64,000 nt of DNA from Candidatus Nanoarchaeia archaeon. Lineage in GTDB: Archaea; Nanobdellota; Nanobdellia; Woesearchaeales; UBA525. Position numbers and translations under genes: made by a program. This document shows positions 36,232 through 50,350 of this stretch, piece after piece (the first letter of the stretch is position 1; the number at the start of each line of letters is the position of its first letter). The stretch spans positions 68,501-132,500 of the forward strand of contig JANQNB010000011.1 of assembly GCA_028279755.1 (NCBI GenBank), written 5' to 3'. Under the pieces are notes generated by a model, which saw nothing but the letters and a program-made list of their open reading frames with translations, was not told the DNA's origin and ran no database searches.

Positions 36232-36329
36232 TGGGACTGGGGAGATTCGAACTCCCGATCTCGCGGCCCCCAGCCGCGAATCATAGTTGCTCCAGCGCGT
36301 TGACGCTGTCCAAGCTAGACCACAGTCCC
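36232..36329 (-). tRNA. tRNA-Pro(GGG) with ~23-nt insertion in the D loop (about 36287-36309)
   Basis: Acceptor GGGACTG/CAGTCCC; anticodon arm CGCGG CTGGGGG CCGCG; T arm GGGAG TTCGAAT CTCCC; insertion ACAGCGTCAACGCGCTGGAGCAA with CAGCG/CGCTG hairpin; 75 nt without it. Confidence 0.82.
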
Positions 36330-42647: not shown

Positions 42648-42740
42648 TAGCCCCGCCCGGATTCGAACCGAGGTCCTCAGATGTCTCCAGCGTTAGCCGC
42701 TGCCAGAGTCTGAGATGATTGGCCGCTACACTACGGGGCT
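42648..42740 (-). tRNA. tRNA-Gln(CTG) with ~20-nt intron after position 37
   Basis: Acceptor AGCCCCG/CGGGGCT; anticodon stem TCAGA/TCTGA with CTCTGG|..A; intron CAGCGGCTAACGCTGGAGAC (CAGCG/CGCTG); 73 nt spliced. Confidence 0.85.
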
Positions 42741-49523: not shown

Positions 49524-49627
49524 TAGCCCCGCCCGGATTTGAACCGAGGTCGCCAGCTCCAAAGGCTGGAATGAGATGCCTTCACAACCATTCTGTGCTG
49601 CAAAATTGGCCGCTACACCACGGGGCT
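49524..49627 (-). tRNA. tRNA-Gln(TTG) with ~31-nt insertion in the D arm (about 49574-49604)
   Basis: Acceptor AGCCCCG/CGGGGCT; anticodon arm CCAGC CTTTGGA GCTGG; T arm CTCGG TTCAAAT CCGGG; removal of TTTGCAGCACAGAATGGTTGTGAAGGCATCT restores GTG-TAGCGGCCAAT-CAT as in tRNA-Gln(CTG) and gives 73 nt. Confidence 0.85.
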
Positions 49628-50257
49628 ATAAAAGCGATGATATCGGCGTTTGTGCTTTGGGTTGCTGAACCCAATTTCTTTATAAAACTTCTGGATGTGA
49701 GCTTTTCGGGAGATATAGACCTTGTTGTGAGTAATGCGAGATGCATAGAACCCTAAGCTTAATAGAGATTCACGGAAATCTACGAGGAGTTTTTTGTTGA
49801 AGTTCTTGAAGCAAATCTGAACCCACTTATCCATTCGATAGATCGAGCCATCAGTGTCTATGAGGCCTCGTACACATGCTCTCAAATACGTCTCATTCTC
49901 ACGGATCCAGCAAGGTATGGTGCATTGGCTCTTTGTTTTGGAACCGGGTCTCAATCCATGCTTTTTAAAGAACTCAACGTACATCTTACCGCAGAGAATC
50001 ACAAACATTTCTTTTCTATCCTTATGAAGATACTTCTTTGGCTCGTCCAGAAACAATTCTCGACATAAAGGTATGATGTAATTTTCGTAATAGTCTGATT
50101 CTTCCGAGTGACCGGTGATCCGCACCGCGTAATAAGCGACTCCTTTTCCAGCTTTCACGAATTCTATAAGGTTGCCATCCCCGAGAATTATGCCGATCAG
50201 TTCCGCGAGCTTTGCTGAATGTTGTGGGAACCGTATGCGCTTTACTCTGGACTTCAT
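49613..50257 (-). CDS. LAGLIDADG homing endonuclease
   Basis: LAELIGIILGDGNLI and LRACVRGLIDTDGSIY motifs; last codons read through tRNA-Gln 5' end (FYSPVV*). Confidence 0.85.
   Translation of the reverse strand: MKSRVKRIRFPQHSAKLAELIGIILGDGNLIEFVKAGKGVAYYAVRITGHSEESDYYENYIIPLCRELFLDEPKKYLHKDRKEMFVILCGKMYVEFFKKHGLRPGSKTKSQCTIPCWIRENETYLRACVRGLIDTDGSIYRMDKWVQICFKNFNKKLLVDFRESLLSLGFYASRITHNKVYISRKAHIQKFYKEIGFSNPKHKRRYHRFYSPVV
49614..49631. repeat. 18-bp direct repeat copy A (tRNA-Gln 5' end)
   Basis: TACACCACGGGGCTATAA. Confidence 0.85.
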
Positions 50258-50350
50258 AATGCTATGTGGAAGTCCGGAGTTAAAAGCGCTACGGGTACCT
50301 GACCAGTGCAAAGCGAAAAATGAACGAGAAAAGCGGAAAAACGACTAAAA

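Follow-up and report, generated by a model that had tools for sequence, protein, structure and literature searches.

LAGLIDADG endonucleases occur inside archaeal rRNA bulge-helix-bulge (BHB) introns and inteins, and collaborative homing was reportedly described by Zeng et al. in 2009 for cyanophage psbA. In collaborative homing, a free-standing endonuclease and a group I intron devoid of an open reading frame share one target (PMC3984707). Non-canonical archaeal tRNA introns are known from Thermoproteales, Nanoarchaeum and ARMAN (PMC4090602, PMC4033280, PMC8450103); the mechanism of tRNA intron transposition was called unknown in a 2014 review (PMC4090602), and splicing endonucleases of the alpha4 type are held to cut canonical BHBs only (reviews; PMC4033280).

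Here we analysed a 64,000-nucleotide stretch of a Woesearchaeales genome (hereafter the window), in which a tRNA-Gln(UUG) gene carries an insertion in its D loop. Like the known non-canonical introns, those described below are BHB introns outside position 37/38, D and T arms included, with up to three per gene; they differ in belonging to Woesearchaeales, in having near-canonical BHBs and, next to the tRNA, a gene for a homing endonuclease, and in coexisting with an apparently single-subunit splicing endonuclease without the Crenarchaea-specific loop. The locus resembles collaborative homing in its free-standing endonuclease beside the gene, in a specific intron site that varies with the lineage of the endonuclease, in an intron without a reading frame (31 nt here) and in an endonuclease gene that is outside the intron but linked to it, overlapping the tRNA 5′ end. 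It differs in that the introns are archaeal BHB introns, predicted to be protein-spliced, in cellular tRNA genes, and in that the endonucleases, whose cleavage is predicted, are of the LAGLIDADG type. With the LAGLIDADG proteins of rRNA BHB introns and inteins our endonuclease shares the protein family and two motifs, but it is encoded beyond the intron, by a gene that overlaps the tRNA on its 5′ side. Taken alone, the intron is another case of the known non-canonical tRNA introns; the association with a tRNA-linked homing endonuclease is the new part.

Results

A BHB intron in the D loop of tRNA-Gln(UUG)

The tRNA-Gln(UUG) gene (positions 49524–49627, minus strand; A1 = 49627, A73 = 49524) is 104 nt long and consists of AGCCCCGTGGTGTAGCGGCCAA, 31 further nucleotides and TCATTCCAGCCTTTGGAGCTGGCGACCTCGGTTCAAATCCGGGCGGGGCTA. 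Taking out the 31 nt leaves a normal 73-nt cloverleaf tRNA-Gln(UUG) with all mature stems intact, and a Gln-specific model, self-trained on the genome's two Gln tRNAs (this gene and its CTG sibling), scored the gene at 91.4 bits with 73/73 mature positions aligned. The generic Rfam tRNA model gave 27.1 bits, with the 5′ half misaligned and the 3′ half aligned well, and ARAGORN did not detect the gene; genes with D-arm introns were missed or misaligned by these two tools. A second UUG gene, which if intact would by the initial annotation mark this one as a pseudogene, was not found among the genome's 44 tRNA hits (1.49-Mb, 24-contig, 93.7% complete assembly). The sibling tRNA-Gln(CTG) gene (42648–42740, minus strand) has an uninterrupted D arm and is 93 nt long because of its own 20-nt anticodon-loop insertion. 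The earlier statement that removal of the 31 nt restores the length of the sibling holds for the mature molecules, both of 73 nt, provided that the sibling's insertion is removed too. Just outside the window, two tRNA genes at most about 300 bases apart read as His(GUG) (G000:C7:66699-67073).

The D arm is without insertion in all eight same-family genomes that have a Gln(UUG) gene, two of these genes being intronless and the others having an anticodon-region insertion instead. Together with the cloverleaf obtained on removal, these orthologues bear out the D-arm intron that had been proposed. We place this intron at 49575–49605 (minus strand), between A21 and U22. One base of the boundary is ambiguous, with a gene-strand T at both 49574 and 49605, and therefore the boundaries 49574–49604 given initially yield the same spliced product as ours; the BHB fits 49575–49605, one base over. 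With the cut after A21, the motif reads GGCC AA↓U (UUUGCAGC loop GGUUGUGAA) GGCA UC↓U (arrows, cuts), in a 3-4-3 geometry: a bulge of 3 nt on either side of a central helix of 4 nt, and an inner helix of 8 pairs. The central helix, in the register supported by a scan of 20 orthologous introns, joins G18 G19 C20 C20a of the exon strand (49608–49611, minus strand) to GGCA of the intron strand (49577–49580, minus strand) in three pairs plus a G.A, and the inner hairpin (49581–49604, minus strand) has eight contiguous pairs, 49604–49597 with 49588–49581.

Dinucleotide shuffles reached a 3-4-3 BHB at the boundary in 0.0002–0.0006 of trials (P 0.0005 as the best of two registers), and P was 0.00015–0.0002 for both BHB helices at fixed register. 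At 37 °C the minimum-energy fold of the precursor is not the BHB, which is less stable by 3.6 kcal/mol, so that the case for the motif is comparative and not energetic. This comparison favours the near-canonical 3-4-3 motif over the different, "relaxed" BHB with TGC/GCA and CACA/TGTG pairs suggested at first. On the comparative evidence, the only tRNA-Gln(UUG) found in the genome has a genuine D-loop BHB intron in these 31 nt, and its removal by the archaeal splicing endonuclease is predicted.

D-loop and T-loop introns in the genome and the order

Scanning with a Gln(UUG) pattern that allows a gap in the D loop revealed D-loop introns in 20 of 344 Woesearchaeales genomes, representing 13 families, and a reversed control pattern had no match in the same genomes. 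Across the 20 introns, 86% of the pair cells were standard in the predicted register, compared with 45–60% when it was slid by 1–3 bases. Inner-helix pairs 2–5 each showed three to five standard pair types, i.e. covariation, and at least three of the four central-helix pairs were present in 17 of the 20. Among genomes at least 90% complete, 12 had a D-loop intron, 87 had an uninterrupted UUG gene and none had both. T-loop insertions after GGTTCGAA were found in eight of the 20 tRNA-Gln(UUG) genes (L157, L158, L159, L160, L166, L168, L169 and L170), with a complete TTCG/CGAA central helix in seven of the eight. Several relatives' tRNA-Gln(UUG) genes carry D-loop, anticodon-loop and T-loop insertions all at once.

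The source genome also has D-loop introns with complete 3-4-3 motifs in Pro(GGG), Val(GAC) and Ile(UAU). That of tRNA-Pro(GGG) (36232–36329, minus strand) occupies 36287–36309, between G19 and C20, and its complete 3-4-3 BHB (4/4 central and 6 inner pairs) was matched by 0 of 20000 shuffles; no endonuclease of the PF14528 family lies beside this gene. Outside the window (L043 and L020), tRNA-Ile(UAU) combines D-loop and anticodon-loop insertions, and the BHB of the D-loop intron in tRNA-Val(GAC) is complete. The view that D-arm introns are known mainly from Thermoproteales needs widening, since they recur in Woesearchaeales and in three more tRNAs of this genome.

The splicing endonuclease

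The closest relatives of the source genome's splicing endonuclease are woesearchaeotal, with 88% identity to a protein of isolate DPANNHV_H2.bin.48. By these relatives the genome belongs to Woesearchaeota, in line with the DPANN-like context recognised earlier. It has one PF01974 gene, and each of 27 other genomes at least 90% complete (one of them a single contig) has one over the cut-off, with frames of 175–266 aa. Unlike Nanoarchaeum equitans (NEQ205/NEQ261; PDB 3iey), whose catalytic subunit ranks among the nearest relatives of known structure, neither the source genome nor any of the 27 others has a second subunit gene over the PF01974 cut-off; a sub-threshold second match of 12–13 bits was seen in three of the 27. 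By alignment, EndA has Y162, H172 and a K in STKKR, and it is without the insertion of about nine residues that PDB chains 3p1z_B and 3ajv_B, which we take to be from Aeropyrum pernix, have before LSLIESLYL; this insertion is presumably the Crenarchaea-specific loop. The splicing endonuclease of the order looks single-subunit, with the gene pattern expected of the alpha4 type, one gene having a core of about 180 aa and no structural paralogue. Most of these introns are canonical or near-canonical, and therefore no conflict with alpha4 specificity need be supposed. At its N-terminus the source genome's enzyme (L042:1474-2157, minus strand) is extended by some 30 residues rich in lysine and alanine, a tail that is not common to all relatives.

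A LAGLIDADG endonuclease gene beside the tRNA

Immediately adjoining the tRNA gene at its 5′ end, on the same strand, is a gene of which the initial annotation made no mention, predicted to encode a free-standing LAGLIDADG homing endonuclease (49613–50257, minus strand; 214 aa from the ATG at 50257). The frame 49613–50311 (minus strand) matched PF14528 with an E value of 7.5e-11, or 5.7e-11 when taken from the ATG at 50257, and the source genome has no other PF14528 match. The stop codon TAG (49615–49613, minus strand) is T13-A14-G15 of the tRNA, in its D loop. The two genes overlap by 15 nt (49613–49627, minus strand), the endonuclease codons S-P-V-V-stop coinciding with tRNA A1-G15, and the same ending is found in L160, from another family. 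Both LAGLIDADG motifs, GIILGDGN and RGLIDTDG, are invariant in four aligned proteins, acidic residues included, and the protein would be expected to cleave DNA site-specifically. A single-sequence AlphaFold model was poor (mean pLDDT 42.9), and comparison with solved structures gave weak matches only, among them two V-ATPase PDB chains that are probably inteins.

Homologues of the endonuclease adjoin tRNA genes

Three other Gln(UUG) genes with D-loop introns, from other families, are likewise directly preceded at the 5′ end by homologues 42–46% identical to this protein. A four-sequence profile gave LAGLIDADG matches in 150 of the 359 genomes of the order, and we analysed 90 loci having the best profile matches, or nearly so, by aligning their flanks to mature tRNA templates with an intron-permitting aligner and calling a tRNA at a score of at least 40. 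A tRNA gene adjoined 79 of the 90 homologues, at a median distance of 17 nt, compared with 3 of 80 control windows flanking splicing-endonuclease genes (Fisher P 4e-32, kinship ignored); four of the 11 homologues without a tRNA neighbour are at contig ends. At least one long insertion was present in 72 of the 79 tRNA neighbours. Isotype labels come from a limited template set and introns common to neighbouring loops may be misplaced by the aligner; the Gln cases were read by eye. Internal stops interrupt several of the homologues, a state that a homing cycle would lead one to expect.

Within the class but outside the order, a tRNA, in most cases Gln or Glu, borders 20 of the 21 top homologues. 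Seven of these tRNAs (five tRNA-Gln and two tRNA-Glu) are uninterrupted, as is the tRNA-Gln adjoining L220 inside the order, and therefore the intron is not always present. The linkage of the endonuclease to tRNA genes is firm; its association with one particular intron holds strongly in the order, without being universal. At L301 and L319, in other orders of the same class, endonuclease frames beside Gln and Glu tRNAs contain internal stops, as expected of decay. At L226, L246, L247, L258, L261 and L269 the endonuclease faces the tRNA tail to tail, in opposite orientation, in clades with Trp and probable Phe tRNAs; the same arrangement is seen at Phe-labelled loci, e.g. L243, L259 and L293, where the tRNAs are probably Phe.

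Endonuclease clades follow isotype and intron site

The tree of the 90 proteins contained separate clades for the endonucleases linked to Gln D-loop introns (value 92), to Gln 10/11 introns (99, starred), to Pro (100, starred), to Gly (99, starred) and to Trp in opposite orientation (99, starred). Labels combining isotype and orientation required 25 changes on this tree against a shuffled mean of 52.2 (0/200 shuffles as low), and intron site within Gln required three changes for four states, the minimum. The window's clade has 15 members with known neighbours, and 13 of these stand on the 5′ side of a tRNA-Gln that is interrupted by an intron in the D loop; the remaining two comprise one anticodon-stem intron and one intronless gene. 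Set against the 12 interrupted and 87 uninterrupted UUG genes of genomes at least 90% complete (about 12%), 13/15 gives a binomial P of 1e-10, uncorrected for relatedness. The second Gln-linked clade contains 10 loci from several host families with the intron at 10/11 and a complete 3-4-3 BHB in nine of the 10, and its endonucleases are about 115–140 nt from their tRNA.

Host families are mixed within clades, and the nearest partner of the window's endonuclease in the tree comes from another family (98, starred) and is not that of the same-family relative G009, which suggests horizontal movement. In a class-wide joint tree, intron site took 10 changes (minimum 3) against a shuffled mean of 21.8 (0/200 as low); intron sites in this tree are clustered, without strict concordance. 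Val-linked and several Gly-linked introns occupy the same D-loop site as the source genome's Val(GAC) intron; the genome has no other such endonuclease, and its Val intron may be a relic.

Discussion

We consider it rather probable that these BHB introns, linked to free-standing LAGLIDADG endonucleases beside the tRNA, spread by collaborative homing, of which the whole scheme would be an archaeal BHB counterpart. The endonuclease would recognise an intact tRNA gene and cut at or near the intron site, whereas an intron-bearing allele would be uncleavable, its tRNA still being made via splicing. Repair from an intron-bearing donor would carry over both the intron and, from a few bases' distance, the endonuclease gene, and once the site is occupied the endonuclease would decay while the intron persisted. 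That tRNA-specialised LAGLIDADG clades drive the gain and horizontal spread of BHB introns, as resistance alleles moving with the endonuclease, in Woesearchaeales and other orders, is a proposal that we consider as likely as not. If true, the endonuclease family would explain how tRNA introns transpose, and the pairing of endonuclease and intron would be a concrete, testable mobility agent for archaeal tRNA introns at many positions.

The intron might instead be an ordinary archaeal tRNA intron in an unusual position, with endonucleases merely gathering at tRNAs as conserved insertion points, unrelated to introns. Archaeal introns at 20/21, 22/23, 59/60 and elsewhere are indeed known (PMC4090602), intronless tRNAs adjoin some endonucleases, and most D-loop introns have no endonuclease beside them: 16 of the 20 found by pattern are without one of the window's subfamily, so that endonuclease loss must be invoked for collaborative homing, and the source genome's three other D-loop introns have no such neighbour. 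We nevertheless regard this explanation as unlikely, since intron position in Gln goes with the endonuclease clade and the 13 D-loop introns among 15 neighbours of the window's clade far exceed the frequency at large.

Alternatively, in intronless homing, a known pathway (PMC3984707), the endonuclease would target the tRNA 5′ region and its own gene at the boundary would destroy that target, the introns being separate, e.g. spliceable repair scars. In the window, L160, L156 and L213 the reading frame extends into the 5′ end of the tRNA; this, and the intronless tRNA neighbours outside the order, would fit such a process, which by itself makes no prediction of one D-loop clade and one 10/11 clade and does not suit the distance of the latter from its tRNA; we hold it to be improbable. 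Finally, a pseudogene, an assembly error or retention of the 31 nt in the mature tRNA is hardly credible: an intact second copy could be missing from 24 contigs at 93.7% completeness, but we rejected the pseudogene and retained-insert readings because the mature stems are all intact, this is the only UUG gene found, and the same insertion site and BHB pairing are conserved in 19 other genomes, never with an intact copy in those at least 90% complete.

Whichever way they were acquired, introns at unusual positions coexist here with an apparently single-subunit splicing endonuclease without the loop thought to permit them, and the near-canonical geometry of the BHBs would be a simple explanation. 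In the D-loop intron the conserved G18-G19 form part of the central helix, as does the conserved TTCG in the T-loop introns. Conserved exon bases would in this way provide half of the splicing signal, which may explain the survival of spliceable insertions at these places.
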